Below are positions 8,511-64,000 of a stretch of 64,000 nucleotides of DNA, piece by piece (within the stretch, counting starts at the first letter, position 1; the number at the start of each line of letters is the position of its first letter). Both the position numbers and the translations under genes were made by a program. The notes under the pieces were generated by a model, which saw only the letters and a list, made by a program, of their open reading frames with translations, did not search any database and was not told the origin of the DNA. The DNA lies in the NCBI GenBank assembly GCA_949358305.1, contig OX442315.1, positions 10,506,427 to 10,570,426 of the forward strand, written 5' to 3'. The stretch comes from Strigamia acuminata. Taxonomy: Eukaryota; Arthropoda; Chilopoda; Geophilomorpha; Linotaeniidae.

Positions 8511-8636
8511 GGAGTGGTTAAAAAGGCAGAAATTCTGCCGAAATAACCATGGGTTAAAAAGGCAGAAATTCTGCCGAAATAACCACGGGTTAAAACGGCA
8601 GAATTTCTGTAGGTTTCACAGAAAGATGTAAATTCC
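8511..8636 (+). repeat. left terminal inverted repeat of MULE
   Basis: Starts GGAGTGGTTAAAAAGGCAG and contains about two and a half tandem palindromic units. It is the inverted copy of 10741-10866. Confidence 0.93.
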
Positions 8637-10740: not shown

Positions 10741-10866
10741 GGAATTTACATCTTTCTGTGGAACCTACAGAAATTCTGCCGTTTTAACCCGTGGTTATTT
10801 CGGCAGAATTTCTGCTTTTTTAACCCGTGGTTATTTCGGCAGAATTTCTGCCTTTTTAACCACTCC
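10741..10866 (-). repeat. right terminal inverted repeat of MULE
   Basis: Inverted copy of 8511-8636, starting GGAATTTACATC and ending TTTAACCACTCC. Confidence 0.93.
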
Positions 10867-37799: not shown

Positions 37800-43713
<5,914 letters not shown>

Positions 43714-50380: not shown

Positions 50381-50890
50381 ATAATTTTACTTTACCGGCC
50401 ACCTCTCAGATCATCTCCAAAATTTGGATATCGGCGTGAAAAAACGAATGGCGTTGACGGTTTTTGGGGCAAACAAAAGTGGAAGCGGAAATCAGGAGAT
50501 TATTAGTAGTTGGTTTATACTGGTGAGGTTAAGTTAGGCATTGGAATTATATGGCCCATTGTTGTTGTTGTTTTTTATGTTGTTGTTGTGTCTCGGGTTA
50601 GGTTAGGTTAGGTTAGGTTAGGTGAGGTAATAAAGATGGCTGACAATAAGAGCGCACGTGCGTAACAATGCTGGGGAGAGAATGACTGACAGCTAACAAT
50701 GAAATTAGGGTTATAAAAATGAGAAAGTAAACATTTGATAGCAATCACTGGTCGTTAATCTGCTGTTTTCTGCTTCCGCTTCCGTTTGCCCCAAAAACCG
50801 TCAACGCCATTCGTTTTTTCACCCTTGAATACCCTTATATCCAAATTTTGGAGATGATCTGAGAGGTGGCCGGTAAAGTAAAATTGTTTC
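50381..50890. mobile_element. inverted-repeat element with telomere-type motif
   Basis: Arms of about 115-128 bp (50381-50495 and about 50763-50890) are inverted copies (GCCGGTAAAGTAAAAT, AACGCCATTCGTTTTTTCAC). The middle of about 265 bp contains (TTAGG)5. No coding sequence. It may be a foldback MITE or a rearranged duplication. Confidence 0.75.
50599..50623 (+). repeat. interstitial (TTAGG)5
   Basis: Five perfect TTAGG units, the telomere repeat of most arthropods, sit inside an inverted-repeat element away from any chromosome end seen here. Confidence 0.9.
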
Positions 50891-56605: not shown

Positions 56606-56896
56606 TTATTGAATGATCGCTTTGGTGCCGTGTTGATTTTTGGTACCGGTATATGGTAAAGAGGCAGATACTGCACTAGGGGGTTGCCATAGAGATGCAG
56701 TTGCTACTTGCCTCACAGGAAATATGGGAATTATTGGGAACCGAATATGGTTCACAATTGAAATAATAGCCGCCCTCGAATTGGAGCTGCAGCCCAGAGT
56801 GCCCGTTTTTAATAAGAGCGGCGGCTCTTATTTGGTAAAAAACAGTATTTTTGAATGATTAGTAGGTTTGTTACCAAGCGCAAAATTATTTTTAAG

Positions 56897-57020
56897 CAGG
56901 GCCGTGTCGACCTATGAGGCGAAGAGGCGGCTGCCAGGTGGTCATGCCGTGGTATTTAACTTTACCAAGGCATGGCCACCTGACGACCACCTCTTCGCCT
57001 CATAGGTCGGCACGGCCCTG
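56897..57020. mobile_element. 124-bp hAT-type MITE, second copy
   Basis: Same length and layout as 6743-6866 (CAGGGCCG ends, near-complete palindrome) with perfect 8-bp direct repeats TTTTTAAG at 56889-56896 and 57021-57028. The corresponding upstream flank of SAMHD1-like copy 1 (about 47570-47610) lacks it. Confidence 0.95.
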
Positions 57021-57054: not shown

Positions 57055-58244
57055 TGTCACCATGTTGTTATGCTGCCGCGTACTGAGAGCAACATGCCTA
57101 AGAGCTGCGGCGATCCGGGTTTTTACTTATTAAATTAGGTAAATTTAACAAGCAATCGTCGTAGAGATGCCGTACAGGACTTCTACTCTGTGGCCAAATG
57201 TTTGTCTAGGGGAATGATTTTACACAGAGTAAAGGAAAAATTAGATAGCTTTAATTGTTCAAAATACAAAGGAGGTATTATTCAAAATGTTTGGGGTCGA
57301 TCTGGCTTCTTCTTCAATATCTACACTCACAGTTGACCGTTGGCTCCAAGATGGCGTCGATGGCGTCGTGTGAGCGCGGGATTTTAGCGGAGTAAACTCG
57401 ACGCTAAAATACGTTGCTAAAATATTCTAAAATCCTCGCGGAGCAAGCTCGACACGAGAATACGTCTTGCACACAGCGGTTTGATTATTACGGAGCAAGC
57501 TCGACGTAACAATCCGTCTTAACACAATTCGCTTTGTGGAGTTAAACTCAACACAAAGCCTTCAAACTAACAGAGTAAACTCGATGTTAGTTTCACACAG
57601 ATTTCTTTGTGGAGCAAGCTCGACACAAAGAACTACAAATCGACAGAGCAAGCTCAATGTCAATTCACACACAGAAATGGCTTAAATTACGTGTAGTAAT
57701 TCAAGCTAGAAAGTTGCTATTCCGTACAGTGGGTACAGACCAGCGATGAAACTCAATTCGTCCAAGAATCACAGATCACACTTTGCAGTTTTGGCAGAAG
57801 TTTGACACGGTTGTGAACAGTTTGGAGGTGGAATCAAGAGTGCGGGAAGAGTGGGCCAAAACCGTTTGGCTCACTTCTAAATCTGCTCAGAAAAGCTGCG
57901 CAGATGACGAGTTGCATGAAGATCACACACGGCCGCCTTCGGGTCGTGTGCAACAATCGAGCCGGGCACGCGCGAGGGGAAGGGATGCTCCGCCCAGGCA
58001 CACGCCTAGCAGCATCATCAAAGCAATGCACGCTGCAGCGCGATTGGTTGACGCTGTTGCTGGGCCAAAACTTGCTGCAAAACACAATATTATTTGGGTA
58101 ATATTGTGTCTTGTTTTATATTTTATTAATGTATGTTTTATTTCAATTTACCTTGAAACAAAACATATAAGCTTGTTGAATATGTTTATAAGACAATTTG
58201 GAAATATGGTGCGCACTCAAATAGGAATATTTGAGGTCACCACA
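57055..58244 (-). repeat. 3' LTR of gypsy element 2
   Basis: About 1,190 bp, TG...CA ends on the element strand. A TATA-like run with AATAAAATATAAAAC lies at about 58105-58125 on the sense strand. The U5-side half carries the seven-hairpin array. Open frames on the plus strand here (for example 57783-58373) are not supported by any family. Confidence 0.75.
57381..57664 (-). repeat. array of seven covarying bulged hairpins in the LTR
   Basis: Seven units share the plus-strand core GAG-YAAR-CTC-RA, each enclosed by a different 7-9 bp inverted pair: 57381-57410 (ATTTTAGCG/CGCTAAAAT), about 57432-57461 (one mismatch), 57484-57513 (one mismatch), 57531-57559 (GCTTTGTG/CACAAAGC), 57564-57593 (AAACTAACA/TGTTAGTTT), 57603-57632 (TTCTTTGTG/CACAAAGAA), 57639-57664. 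In element-sense RNA each is a stem, a 5' UC or UU bulge, GAG, a CUUG or UUUA loop, CUC. CUUG closed by G-C is a known very stable tetraloop; UUUA keeps the 1-4 pairing. Spacers are short and unrelated. Stems that differ in sequence but stay paired indicate selection on structure. Confidence 0.92.
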
Positions 58245-58259
58245 CTTCCCCCCCTTTTA
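58245..58259 (-). other. polypurine tract of gypsy element 2
   Basis: The sense strand reads AAAAGGGGGGGAAG directly against the LTR start, the plus-strand primer position. Confidence 0.8.
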
Positions 58260-58420: not shown

Positions 58421-61255
58421 TTATTTCGGCAACATGTCCGTCGAATGATCGTTTGGATCTTTGTGCTCCGTGACGGTGCACAAAGGTCGGCCGGCGTTTG
58501 GTCCTGACCGGAAGCCAGGGTTGATGTGGAGCCACACTTGTTTGATGCGGTCCACACCATCCCTTCGTCCAAAACCCATCTCGAAATACTCCTGCGGGTC
58601 TTGAGGCGTAATTCGAGCGAACACCAGGCGTTGATGTAGGATCCACGGCTGCTGTTCCTTGATGTGGTTTTCCAGCCACGCGAGGACTCGGTTGCATAAA
58701 TCCTCGCTGTTCTGGAGAATCGTTTTCGTCGCGCTCGTTATGTAGCAAAAGGCGTATAAAGAGCGCAAACGTTGATAGGCGGTGAGGTGGGTGGCCATAT
58801 TCGATCCCCTATCTCTTGGCGGCGAATCCTTTGGAGGAGGCGGCGGTGGCGGCGACTTCTTGCAGATCGAGAGGGATCTGGATCTGCGCAAAGCCGGGGT
58901 GCGCGTCTTTGGTCTGGCACCGCAGGCCACAGGCACGACGAACTCGCGATCGTCGCTGTCGAGCCACTCCATTGGAGACGAGATGTTGCAACTCGGTGCC
59001 TCGGTTGCACGGGAAACACTCGACGTTGCCGTGATGGCAGCGTGGAGTGGAGCTGCGGATGACGGTGGTGCGCCAGCGGGACGGGCGGTAGCTCGTTCTG
59101 CTGCGCGTCGCTGCTTCAGCGCAGCCCATTCCTGCCGTAGTCGAATGGCGGATCCAGCCGGAGTTTCGCCAGTCGCCTCGGCTTGTTGCGTCAATTCGGC
59201 GAGCATCGTTGGAGGATCGGGGCGAACTGACTCCCAGTCGTCCAGCAAGGCTCGTGGAAGCCCTAACGGCACGGTCCACAATCGAGTGGCGGCCGCCAGA
59301 GCAATCTGTGGGTCGGGAAAGACTCCTTGGAACAGGATTCGAAGCAGTCCCTCCGACAATTTCCTGTTCATTTTCTGCAGCGTCCGTTGCAGTTGCTTGT
59401 CGGACTTGCACGACGCAAGCTCTCGCGCAAGCCATTGCCATTCCTTCTCACCTTCGCGGATCTGAGCGAGTTGGTATTCGTCCAGATGCGCGAGGTACAT
59501 CGCTTGGGCTGTCTCGGGAAACGATGAGAATCGCCTCCAGAGATCAGCGCACTCCTGGGCGGGAAACGGTTCGTGAGAGACGTATCCCTCAAAACGGATG
59601 ACCGATGTCACTTGTGGCACGGGCACCGATGGGTCTGGTCGCATGTCGCTGGTAACTGGACGGCAAGCAAACGGCAAAGAGGTGTTGACGTCTCCTTGAC
59701 CGGCTTGCAATGCGGCGATGCGTTGGTCTTCCTTCGCTATCTCGTCCGACCAGTCAATCCGGCCGGAGGAGGAAGCGCCAAGCTGTGAAGCGTTGGACCT
59801 TTCTTCACGCGACGAGAGTGAACTCCTCGTGGAAGATTGGCGCGATTGTACTCGAGGTCGGCTTCGGGATGTGGGTCTCGACACGGACTTCGAATGTCTT
59901 TTTGGCGGCGTCGGCTCGCGTCGGTGATGCGAGCGATGACGAGCCTTCTGGAGTGGAGGCAACCCTCCAATGGCGCCTTCCCCCGACGACTGTGTTGGGG
60001 AGGAGCGACGGCCACTGTAGGGCGACCTCGAAGATCGTGACCTCGACGTGGAGCGCGGTGGCACCACGTGGATGGTGGAAGCGACCTGTACCCGGGGCTC
60101 AGGCTCTGGATACGGGTTTGGCACGAAATCAGCATGGAAACATCCGCCCATGGCTAGTTGATGCATCTCCGATTGGCATGTCGGCACCCAACGTTTCTTT
60201 CCGTCCGTTGTTACACGGAAAGATTCGTTGTAGAGGCGTACAACCTCGGCTTTGGTTTGGTCCAAGCGTTGGAAAATATCCTCCAAAATCTGTCGACGCT
60301 CCCACGCAGGAGCGTTGAAGTAACGGCGATGGTCTCGCGTTTCTTGATTGATCACTGTGAAGGCGAAGTCGAGCAACACGTTTCGCAGTGGTCCGAAGGT
60401 ATCGCGCTTCATTGCCCACTCGAGGGCGTCGCGATGACCGAATCCATCGATTAAATAGGCGATCCGAAACTTCGTTCCCCATCGCTTGTTTAAGGCCTTG
60501 GAGAATTTGTGTCGGGCCGCCCAAAACGTCAGTCGTCCTTTCGACTTTATGATTTCTGGCGGCAATGCGTGTCGCCAGACACCAGGAGCGGTTGGAACAT
60601 CGGGATGCAGTTCGAGATGTGTTTCCCGAAGCTGGATGATCTGTAAAATATTCGAAGAAATAATTAAAATCCATTTTTTCGTGTAAAATAATTATTTCCG
60701 AATTTTCAGTGAATAAAATCACGGGTGAGATTTCATTCGACAGTTTAGATTCATTAAATTTTTCAAAATATTTGAAAAATCGTGAAAAACGTTGTTTCCG
60801 ACGGCTATGTTTCAATGTTGGAGCGTTACCGTAGCAACGCCTCAAAAACGAGACACAGCGCCATCTGGTGATAATAATGGCGGCGCCTTCTTGCGAAGGC
60901 GTTACCAACGAACTTTTCGCTTTTTCTGAGTGAAAATGCACTTTTAATTACTTTTCATGACTGAAAGGTAATTTTATTTTAAATTATTTACCCGGTCGTG
61001 TCTCTGTGCACGAGTTTCGCCGTTTGGATCGGCGAATAGGCCTCCTCGAAGTTGTGGTCGGGGCGGCGTGACTGGCAAACGGGCAGCAGCGTCGGCCAGA
61101 GCGGCTTGAGCTTCGGCGGACGCTTCGGCGGACTCTTCGGTGACATCCACGGATGTATTCGAAGTGTTTGCGGAACCAAGCAGCGTCGAATTTGTTTCTA
61201 ATTCGAGGCTGTTGGCGCCGGCTTCGCTTCCTTCTTTCGGTTCCTCTCCTTCCAT
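58421..61255 (-). CDS. spliced third ORF of gypsy element 2
   Basis: Exon 1 (61255-60992, 88 codons, MEGEEPKEGSEAG...) ends at GTAAAT; exon 2 (60640-58421) follows TTTTACAG. Both are phase 0, giving about 827 residues. As in element 1: an acidic first exon, a start of exon 2 with a short hydrophobic-aromatic motif region (LELHPDVPTAPGVWRHALPPE), an Arg/Ser-rich middle, a central helical segment (LPRALLDDWESVRPDP against element 1's LPRALYQVWAGWTPEP) and a C-terminal domain (LAWLENHIKEQQPWILHQRLVFAR). No membrane helix or signal peptide. Same place between pol and the 3' LTR. The shared exon boundary and LPRAL motif make common ancestry likely. The role is unknown. Confidence 0.78.
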
Positions 61256-61463: not shown

Positions 61464-64000
61464 TTACGTTTGGGTAACGTCGCTGTTAGTGACGTCATCC
61501 AATCTTATTGTTTGATTGGTTTGAGTATGGCTTGAGGAATTGCTCCTTACGTCATACGGCTGATCCCTGGATCTCGAGGTTAGCGAGGGGAGAAGACACA
61601 TGTTGTTTTTTCCTCTCGGTTTACGAGTCCGAAGATTATATCTCTTTGTCGGCGAGGGATTTATTGTATTTAAATCGCCGTCTTCATTGTCATCGGAGAC
61701 TGAGTCAGATGAGTCTTTTATTTCAGATGTTTTTTGTTTCTTTTCTAAAAACACCTTTTTATTTAATTTTTTAGCAATTTCAAGCTTTTTGAAACTGTCA
61801 CGAAGTTCAACGTCGTTATTCACGAGGTCTGACTCCATTTGTGGTTTGGATGAATTATCGACAGGTATTTTCTTTAATTCATCGTCATCTAACGTATCAA
61901 TTATATTTTCAGTCTTTTGACCGACTTCTTCGCCTTCTAACCATACTTCCTGATCGAAACTCGGGAAATACGGAGTTAATTCAGACGAATGGACAGCTGG
62001 AAATATTTCGTTATTTTCTAGCTTTCTCAATTCTACGGATCCTCCCTGTAATACTTTGGTTATTACATATGGTCCTGTTCTTTTATCAGCGATGCCAGCT
62101 GCAATGCCGCGGGCAGCGCTCGACAAAACATGAGAATCTCTCCAAACTAAATCGTTTAATTTAAAATTGGAGAACTTCTCACCTTCTTTTTTAAGATTTA
62201 CTCGTCTACGCAAATCTAACACGTGTGACATCATGTGCTGATATGTTTCGGCGATAACGGCTTCTAATTTTTGCACGTATAAATGTGGGTTTTTTGGATC
62301 TACGACCAAAATTCCTTCAGGTATTCTTGGATCCCAAGGTACTCTGAGTTCGCGAAAAAAGTTAAGAAATGCGGGAGAGAAGTCTCTTCCTCTCGTCACC
62401 GTAGTTCTCAAACTAAATGCAAATTCACGCAAATATTCGTCCCATTTGGAATGAACAGATGAATAAATTGCAACCAAATATTTGATGTCACGGTTAACCC
62501 TTTCAACCGGGTTAGCTTGTGGGTGATACGTTGAAGTTGGTGTTGGAACCATCTTGAACTTTTCACAAAATTTTTTAAAGACTTGGGCACGAAATTGCGG
62601 GCCGTTGTCAGAAATAATTTTACGAGGGAATCCCATGCTCATGGAAAGGTGATAAATGCAATTTGCCACTTTTCCAGCAGTGGGGTTACACATTGGATAT
62701 AATTCTGGCCAATGAGTTGCCACGTCAAGTATGACTAAAATATGTGTGTTGTTTTTGCGCGTCCGAGGTTTCGGGCCGGTCAAATCAACACTTAGGCAGT
62801 CAAATGGGCTGTAAGGACCCATTTGCGCTGCTTCAATTTGTCCTTTCGTTCGAGGCTTGCAAGCTTGACAACGCTCGCAATGTCGAATGAATCTCGTAAT
62901 GTCCGATTTCATGCCTTTCCAGGTATAAATTCGGCGTGCTCGATAAAGAGTCCTTGCAATTCCTGGGTGGCCAGAAAGTGGGTGGCCATGCATCAGCCAA
63001 ATAATTTTATACTTCAATGTCTGAGGTACAAAAACTTTGAGTGCTCTCCCATCCTCCCCCAATTCATCAGACATTGTGGGATGAAATTGCATTAATAAGT
63101 CGTCTTCAATTAAGAAGGTGGTTGCGTGTTTTCTATATTGTTTCCTCTGGAGTCGCGTTGTGACGTCAGGCGGAAATTGATTACAATTTAAAAAATTACG
63201 CATCAATTGGCACACTTTATCTTCTTTCTGTGCCTTAATTATGTCTTCCCTTGTGGGAGGTTCACAATCAAGACGTTCTACAATTTTGGCGACAAATGCT
63301 TTTATTAAAACATTTGACGAAGGAACTTGGAATTTCCTTGAAATTTGCGCTCTTATGACGTCATCTGATTCCTCAGAGGGGTCATAGATTTTAGTCCAAT
63401 AGTTGACGAATTCATGATCTTCCTTTTCCTCCAGCGTGGAGACAGGAAGCTCATGAAACTTTCCCATTTTCCAATTTCGTTGAGGTGATGGACAGTAAGA
63501 TAATAATTCGTCATTATCTCCATCATCTTCAGGATTTTCCGGTTTGTCAATCGGTGATCTGGATAAAGCATCCGCTAAAACATTTAGTGGACCTTTAATG
63601 TATTGTATTTCGAAAGAATAGCGCATCAGCTCCATTTGCCAACGCGCTAACCTTCCGGCAGGTTCGTCTAACTGCATCAACCATTTTAGTGCTTGATGGT
63701 CAGTCCTAACTATGAATGTGGTAAATTCCAAATAATGTCGAAATTTACGTAATGCCCAGATTACCGCTAGGCACTCCAATTCTGTGGCGCTGTAATTTAT
63801 CTCAGCAGGTTGCAAACTTCTGCTGGCATAAACACAAGGCACTTCGATATTTTGATCATCGATTTCCCTCATTTGCATAAGCGCGGCGCCTAGTCCTTTC
63901 CTGCTGGCGTCGGTATGCACAATAAATGGTTCTGTCAAATCAGGCATGGCCATTGTTTCTGCATTTGTTAAAGCATCTTTTATTTGATCAAAAGCTTCTT
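61464..64000 (-). CDS. pol: Pol polyprotein of gypsy element 2, 3' part
   Basis: Open at the right edge; the visible part starts in the connection/RNase H region (EAFDQIKDALTNAET, then FIVHTDASRKGLGAALMQM), continues with an integrase HHCC module (GHPLSGHPGIARTLYRARR...HCERCQACKPR) and the DDE core (LSVDLTGPKP, SDNGPQFRAQ, NPVERVNRDI), the GPY-type end (KRTGPYVIT), and an acidic C-terminal tail to the stop at 61464. Homologous along its length to pol of element 1. RT and protease lie outside the window. No stop is seen. Confidence 0.93.
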   Translation of the reverse strand, partial: EAFDQIKDALTNAETMAMPDLTEPFIVHTDASRKGLGAALMQMREIDDQNIEVPCVYASRSLQPAEINYSATELECLAVIWALRKFRHYLEFTTFIVRTDHQALKWLMQLDEPAGRLARWQMELMRYSFEIQYIKGPLNVLADALSRSPIDKPENPEDDGDNDELLSYCPSPQRNWKMGKFHELPVSTLEEKEDHEFVNYWTKIYDPSEESDDVIRAQISRKFQVPSSNVLIKAFVAKIVERLDCEPPTREDIIKAQKEDKVCQLMRNFLNCNQFPPDVTTRLQRKQYRKHATTFLIEDDLLMQFHPTMSDELGEDGRALKVFVPQTLKYKIIWLMHGHPLSGHPGIARTLYRARRIYTWKGMKSDITRFIRHCERCQACKPRTKGQIEAAQMGPYSPFDCLSVDLTGPKPRTRKNNTHILVILDVATHWPELYPMCNPTAGKVANCIYHLSMSMGFPRKIISDNGPQFRAQVFKKFCEKFKMVPTPTSTYHPQANPVERVNRDIKYLVAIYSSVHSKWDEYLREFAFSLRTTVTRGRDFSPAFLNFFRELRVPWDPRIPEGILVVDPKNPHLYVQKLEAVIAETYQHMMSHVLDLRRRVNLKKEGEKFSNFKLNDLVWRDSHVLSSAARGIAAGIADKRTGPYVITKVLQGGSVELRKLENNEIFPAVHSSELTPYFPSFDQEVWLEGEEVGQKTENIIDTLDDDELKKIPVDNSSKPQMESDLVNNDVELRDSFKKLEIAKKLNKKVFLEKKQKTSEIKDSSDSVSDDNEDGDLNTINPSPTKRYNLRTRKPRGKNNMCLLPSLTSRSRDQPYDVRSNSSSHTQTNQTIRLDDVTNSDVTQT

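Follow-up and report, generated by a model that had tools for sequence, protein, structure and literature searches.

The locus raises the question of what maintains a row of seven hairpins in a long terminal repeat (LTR), and what such a row could be for. The window, a stretch of 64,000 nucleotides from the genome of Strigamia acuminata, contains three parts of a retrotransposon: a 3′ LTR, part of pol and a third frame of 714 aa, with the minus strand of the window being the sense strand of the element. The 3′ LTR (57106..58244, minus, 1139 bp) reads TGTGG...CGCCGCA, has ends that are common to other copies and is immediately preceded by the polypurine tract AAAAGGGGGGGAAG (58245..58258, minus). 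The pol part (61464..63998, minus) runs off the window and matched the profiles RT_RNaseH (E 2.8e-37) and Integrase_H2C2 (E 1.4e-19), with RNase H before integrase, and matched rve weakly (E 2.4e-4, below its cut-off). The second LTR of this copy lies 11,814 bp further on, outside the window, and the full copy therefore measures ∼12.9 kb. This 5′ LTR matches the 3′ LTR at 100% over 1,014 bp; it is without its first 125 bp and starts inside the TATA-like box described below. A clear target duplication was not seen by eye around the window's own copy. In other copies of the element an 18-nt primer site follows 2 nt after the 5′ LTR. Its sequence was TGGGGGCCCGTCCGGGAT in 28 of 30 pattern-matched loci, some of which are the same place, and carried one change in the other 2; we take it to resemble the tRNA-Pro site of murine leukaemia virus. 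Judged by its LTR ends, primer site, polypurine tract and domain content, the host of the array is a Ty3/gypsy LTR retrotransposon. This gypsy-type element is recently active.

Several other repeats were observed in the window. A fold-back inverted repeat lies beside the insertion at 56894-57020, where a 129-bp inverse-orientation self match reaches 84%. Further away are a 3.3-kb perfect ATTT tandem array (39710-43036, 832 copies) and a short (GGTTA)n stretch (50596-50628), i.e. TTAGG, the arthropod-type telomere repeat. The same 36-bp unit, in 2.6 copies, is found at 8516-8609 and at 10768-10861, ∼2.2 kb apart and in opposite orientation, which is an arrangement like that of terminal inverted repeats.

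Read on the minus strand, the LTR contains seven tandem hairpins at 57381-57666 (LTR positions 579-864), as claimed in a preliminary description of this DNA. In the sense RNA, each unit can fold into a stem of 8–10 bp that is followed by a 2-nt bulge on the 5′ side, three GAG/CUC base pairs and a small loop. All units are on the minus strand, and the loop is CUUG in unit 1 (57637..57666) and unit 2 (57603..57632), UUUA in unit 3 (57564..57593), UUUAA in unit 4 (57531..57559), CUUG in unit 5 (57483..57514), CUUG, or CGUG in some copies, in unit 6 (57432..57461), and UUUA in unit 7 (57381..57410), the last carrying a compensated A-U to G-C change in some copies. The arms are thus longer than the 7–9 bp first reported, and the single identical 12-nt core of that report gave way to a more variable one, in which the second bulge base is C or U, the loop is CUUG or UUUA and the core of unit 4 has 13 nt. 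Unit 2 was unformed in one of two minimum-energy folds and unit 6 in both. Just upstream of the array lies an extra, core-less hairpin (57681..57705, minus) with an 11-bp stem and a 5-nt loop, which differs between copies.

In the window copy, all 56 inner stem cells (7 units × 8 pairs) were paired. When the 3′ arms were re-assigned to the 5′ arms in all 5,040 ways, the true assignment alone gave 56, with a mean of 37.6 and a next best value of 54, and slid registers of the arms paired only 22–26 of the 56 cells. Furthermore, when the whole LTR (1,139 nt) was scanned for this architecture (at least 8 bp, a 2-nt 5′ bulge, 3 bp and a 4- to 5-nt loop), exactly these seven units came up in the sense strand and none in the antisense strand, while 400 dinucleotide shuffles of the LTR yielded a mean of 0.03 matches and a maximum of 2. 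A chance origin of the seven hairpins was rejected on the strength of these re-assignment and shuffle tests. The folding energy of the array had z-scores of −3.9 for the sense and −3.7 for the antisense strand, and being near equal these do not distinguish the two strands.

Arrays were extracted from 119 of 119 same-genome loci (L009-L127), 67 of them distinct; L001-L008 were left out as places already present in L009-L019, and two further places were counted twice. By length, 26 loci (9 distinct) carried seven-unit arrays and 93 loci (58 distinct) five-unit arrays. Since the DNA searches scored the best 40 of 268–397 candidates, the number of copies is to be read as a minimum, and close copies are favoured in the sample. 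A pattern of two neighbouring cores matched 338 times genome-wide and its reversed control not at all, and the 67 matches listed with their letters were all arrays of this kind. In the five-unit form, the first slot is occupied either by AACTAACA/TGTTAGTT with loop UUUA or by AATTGACA/TGTCAATT with loop CUUG, and the second slot has the two alleles GCTTTGTG/CACAAAGC and TTCTTTGTG/CACAAAGAA. In the seven-unit form the two allelic hairpin pairs follow one another, as units 1-2 and 3-4. From this we infer that the seven-unit form arose by unequal recombination; the array length would shift between five and seven units through recombination of allelic hairpin pairs.

These copies bear on whether the fold is selected, and in which molecule. 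Over the 67 distinct arrays, 3,107 of 3,109 ungapped stem cells were paired, the cells comprising 2,865 Watson-Crick and 242 G-U pairs, 1 A-C and 1 other mismatch, in addition to 1 gap. Counted as distinct types, the non-Watson-Crick cells amounted to 14 G-U, 1 A-C and 1 other. A G-U in the sense strand is an A-C in the antisense strand, and the 14 G-U against 1 A-C types (one-sided binomial 0.0005) therefore point to the sense RNA as the selected molecule. Both antisense RNA and a DNA cruciform are disfavoured by this asymmetry. In agreement with this, variant types changed on one side of the modal pair kept sense pairing in 15 of 17 cases, where the substitution spectrum seen elsewhere in the LTR would predict 34% (P 6e-6; since the copies are related and recombining, the variant types are not fully independent, and this and the other P values are guides). 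After removal of types present in both alignments, sense pairing was kept in 13 of 15 (P 4e-5), and antisense pairing would survive in only 6 of the 17 one-sided types. Pairing was also kept in all six two-sided variant types (5 different), which sit at pairs 4 and 6 of the first slot, at pair 8 of the second slot (T-A and T-G) and at pair 4 of unit 7. The last of these, the A-U to G-C change, is present in several otherwise different copies, which may reflect recurrence or recombination, and none of the copies had a one-sided intermediate of this double change. The stem mismatches in the copies were a T-C in unit 4 of L035 and an A-C in unit 7 of L093; in addition, L092 has a deletion through unit 7, and unit 6 of L020 has lost the G-C pair above the bulge.

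The variation is unevenly spread over the unit. In the 58 five-unit rows, variable columns made up 0 of 30 in GAG/CUC, 0 of 5 at the first bulge base, 4 of 5 at the second bulge base, 19 of 88 in the stems and 35 of 64 in the linkers; in the smaller seven-unit set the corresponding values were 1 of 42 for GAG/CUC, 0 of 7 for the first bulge base, 7 of 124 for the stems and 14 of 76 for the linkers. Judged from these comparisons of copies, the array is almost certainly a selected sense-RNA fold. The selected single-strand fold of the preliminary description was thus borne out by compensatory changes between copies and by wobbles acceptable in the sense strand only, and the refutation it named, uncompensated stem mutations in other copies, did not materialise, the stem changes being nearly all compensated or tolerated.

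The place of the array in the transcript was judged from four short motifs with putative roles, scored in 60 distinct full LTRs taken from 77 loci among L009-L086. A TATA-like box, TATAAA (58115..58120, minus, LTR position 125), and a CCAAT box (58043..58047, minus, LTR position 198) were each kept in 60 of 60, a GC box, GGGCGG (57990..57995, minus, LTR position 250), in 58 of 60, and a probable poly(A) signal, ATTAAA (57250..57255, minus, LTR position 990), in 59 of 60, the last within a stretch that varies more than most others in the LTR. Since the ATTAAA of the 3′ LTR lies downstream of the array, a transcript ending there would hold the array at least once. The order of the boxes suggests a start site after the GC box, in which case the array would fall into R and hence occur twice on the genomic RNA, once at either end, and also on spliced mRNAs. 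With start and end sites predicted in this way, the array probably lies in the transcribed part of the LTR, in R rather than in U5. As far as sequence allows, the conserved downstream ATTAAA thus upholds the transcription of the array, while the U5-side placement favoured at first has become the less likely one, with promoter-like boxes upstream and the poly(A) signal downstream.

Three further features were observed in this part of the LTR. The hairpin CACAATATT...AATATTGTG is found at 58083-58108 (minus), shortly after the TATA-like box. Downstream of ATTAAA, a block of low diversity (57184-57231, minus) contains the inverted repeat TACTCTGTG/CACAGAGTA, which may be a hairpin of the poly(A) site or of U5. 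Two GCCAT boxes (57348-57364, minus), which we assume to resemble YY1 sites, closely follow the array; the GCCATCTT one is present in 48 of 60 LTRs.

What the array could bind is suggested by the letters of its core, which were tabulated for 352 hairpins, one broken unit being left out. The base before the bulge was a purine and the first bulge base U in 352 of 352, and the second bulge base was C in 218, U in 128 and A in 6. Above the bulge followed G-C (351), A-U (352) and G-C (352), and then, at the end of the loop, C-G (194), U-A (157) or C-A (1); the loops were CUUG, UUUA, UUUAA, CGUG, UUCA and CUUA. In an arginine sandwich, as outlined in an excerpt of PMC6189040, a bulge pyrimidine forms a base triple with a stem pair, and an arginine is stacked between this pyrimidine and the base just before the bulge; the TAR contacts are those of U23 with A27-U38, A22, G26 and G28. 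According to an excerpt of PMC10970485, the first bulge uridine of TAR and the G-C and A-U above it are indispensable, and the HIV-2 TAR site is AGAUUG. The array shares with lentiviral TAR a hairpin in the transcribed LTR, a purine before a pyrimidine 5′ bulge, a U as first bulge base, and G-C, A-U and G above the bulge (excerpts of PMC6189040 and PMC10970485), and its positions match the TAR requirements in being invariant or nearly so, with A or G as the equivalent of A22 and a free second bulge base. This likeness was found after comparing the core with several known hairpins, and it concerns few letters, a fixed U and three fixed pairs being expected by chance about 1 time in 256 by our estimate. 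Having several hairpins is a further likeness to the TAR of HIV-2 and SIV, the former having three stem-loops in one model as excerpted. The array also resembles 7SK stem-loop 1, which has multiple arginine-sandwich sites per RNA with pyrimidine bulges of 1–2 nt, although in 7SK the sites are grouped in a single helical turn of the same stem, whereas the array consists of separate tandem hairpins (excerpt of PMC6189040).

The differences from TAR are equally clear. The array has five to seven short units with free stems and a small loop instead of a hexaloop, its lower pairs differ, its host is a Ty3/gypsy element and not a lentivirus, and a Tat-like gene was not recognised. The cyclin T1-binding hexaloop of TAR was absent from the loops of all 352 hairpins; with lower pairs unlike those of TAR and no hexaloop, cyclin T1 recruitment in the style of HIV is not predicted. 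An Rfam search placed no family above its gathering score and gave 4 sub-threshold matches, the best with E 2.2 and none to TAR or 7SK. Since the TAR loop is absent and an Rfam match was not obtained, the array is better described as one that would work like a TAR than as one that is a TAR.

Taken together, an arginine-sandwich pocket would result from the purine before the bulge, the bulge U, the three pairs above the bulge (G-C, A-U, G-C) and a second bulge base that is free. The invariant letters would make up a pocket like those of HIV TAR and 7SK stem-loop 1, and thus suggest multivalent docking of an arginine-rich protein. Our preferred reading, tentative and a little short of an even chance, is that of a cis-acting RNA element, located where the LTR is transcribed, which serves as a multivalent docking platform for such a protein by the arginine-sandwich mechanism. 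The fuller statement, that these are five to seven tandem TAR/7SK-like arginine-sandwich hairpins in R which evolved independently of lentiviruses and form a multivalent response element, adjustable by recombination and read either by the element's own arginine-rich protein or by host HEXIM/P-TEFb, is possible, and we hold it with more reserve. For the function as such, we offer a reasoned guess. Of the proposals made at first for a multivalent array, protein binding remains the best reading, while dimerisation through the loops is disfavoured, since most loops offer only UU enclosed by a C-G or U-A pair. Dimerisation via the UCGA palindrome at the bulge is disfavoured as well, this palindrome lying partly within the stem and being interrupted in 134 of the 352 hairpins.

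As the ligand, the element's own Gag would be the first choice, via its basic segment QRSRRRHRSKRKRP together with a CCHC knuckle, because an array of many sites suits assembly on RNA and because the basic segment of Gag was the strongest among the pieces compared, the best stretch of the third ORF being weaker. With several sites on each RNA, Gag could assemble on the genomic RNA. As measured from pieces of another copy, Gag starts ∼90 nt after the LTR and is open for ∼964 codons; it contains a capsid-type Retrotrans_gag domain (E 1.4e-9) and, near its end, one CCHC knuckle. The basic segment, at about residues 371-384, lies upstream of the capsid-like domain and was identical to the letter in all 10 rows reaching it in frame, and a second basic stretch is found in the next piece (L242). 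Basic segments occur in many proteins and may act as nuclear localisation signals. The presumed position in R, on spliced mRNAs as well, argues against a pure packaging signal and would suit trans-activation or export no less than packaging.

The array could instead raise the export or the elongation of unspliced RNA in a Rev/Rex-, CERV- or TAR/7SK-like manner, bound not by Gag but by a regulator such as the product of the arginine-rich third ORF, or by host HEXIM/P-TEFb. We consider this unlikely, if a serious competitor. Being probably in R, the array would, like TAR, occur on all transcripts, and the third ORF (58421..60565, minus; TTG start, first M at codon 52) encodes 76 Arg. No Pfam match was found for this frame, which was searched in pieces, none of 7,993 scored candidate relatives reached E ≤ 0.001, and hydropathy revealed no membrane-like segment, so that it is not Env-like. 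A possible host ligand is indicated by two HEXIM matches over the cut-off in the host genome (C3:29670377 and C3:28238780), one nearly full and one partial. Against this stand the weaker basic stretch of the third ORF, its lack of homology to any known regulator and the missing TAR loop. Candidate partner trans-activators are the Gag basic segment and the arginine-rich third ORF, with no homology in either case. The Rex response element is located in the LTR, and we know of no tandem array of near-equal hairpins among Rev/Rex response elements and constitutive transport elements. Like the array, the RNA targets of Rev and the Mason-Pfizer element are structured RNAs, there exporting unspliced RNA via a viral or host protein (excerpt of PMC10309623). 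In the same excerpt, Cer1 is likewise a gypsy-type element with a third, non-Env ORF: its CERV is made from spliced mRNA and is needed for export of the genomic RNA, an example of export being served by an additional protein of a gypsy-type element.

Less probable again is that a host or element protein reads the shape of the bulged GAG-YUUR-CUC hairpin by means other than arginine, for instance in RNA localisation, stability or translation control, and that the resemblance to TAR is a coincidence. An invariant core with free stems would suit any binder of bulged hairpins, but the split between invariant and free positions fits the arginine-sandwich requirements letter by letter, and we regard this reading as improbable.

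Much further down is the notion that the hairpins have no selected function and owe their origin and repair to template switching during replication or reverse transcription. Retroelements switch templates often, and the unit 7 double change with its missing one-sided intermediate would suit such an origin. Compensatory changes can indeed be created in one event by template switching (excerpt of PMC8794818). Repair of this kind would, however, be expected to erase the 2-nt bulge too, should not spare GAG/CUC and the bulge U (none of whose 35 columns varied in the five-unit set) and gives no reason for G-U over A-C, which makes it very unlikely. The least credible reading is that of a DNA-level element (a cruciform, a repeated protein-binding site or an insulator), for which the repeated palindromic LTR motifs of Sireviruses offer a parallel (excerpt of PMC2829016), but which is disfavoured by stem sequences that differ between units yet stay paired and by wobbles acceptable in the sense RNA only. 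In that excerpt, the many Sirevirus repeats, from Ty1/copia elements of plants, are DNA palindromes with a CGG-CCG core located upstream of the TATA box and discussed as regulatory DNA, and the array was found to have a GAG/CUC core and to lie downstream of the TATA-like box.

A pattern scan of virus records (viral contigs) produced 114 stretches with 327 cores. The architecture of the array was absent from these 114 stretches, the stem below the 2-nt bulge being at most 3 bp at all 327 cores; stretches L145 and L218, with 5- to 11-bp stems lacking the bulge, and L147 and L156, with short-period repeats, were rejected. Among the titles and abstract openings listed by a literature search, conducted mostly without subscription journals, there was no LTR retroelement with a tandem array of covarying hairpins and nothing that joins a TAR-like structure with a retrotransposon.

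Structured LTR RNAs are well known in retroviruses, and the marking of RNA by Ty3/gypsy elements is, to our knowledge, less well known. Here, natural variation within a single genome yields 67 distinct forms of one array, with compensatory changes and a clear invariant core, and the arginine sandwich provides a concrete chemical hypothesis for it. If true, an element outside the lentiviruses would have converged on the TAR/7SK recognition mode, and there would be a way into the question of how the genomic RNA of gypsy elements is selected, exported or expressed.
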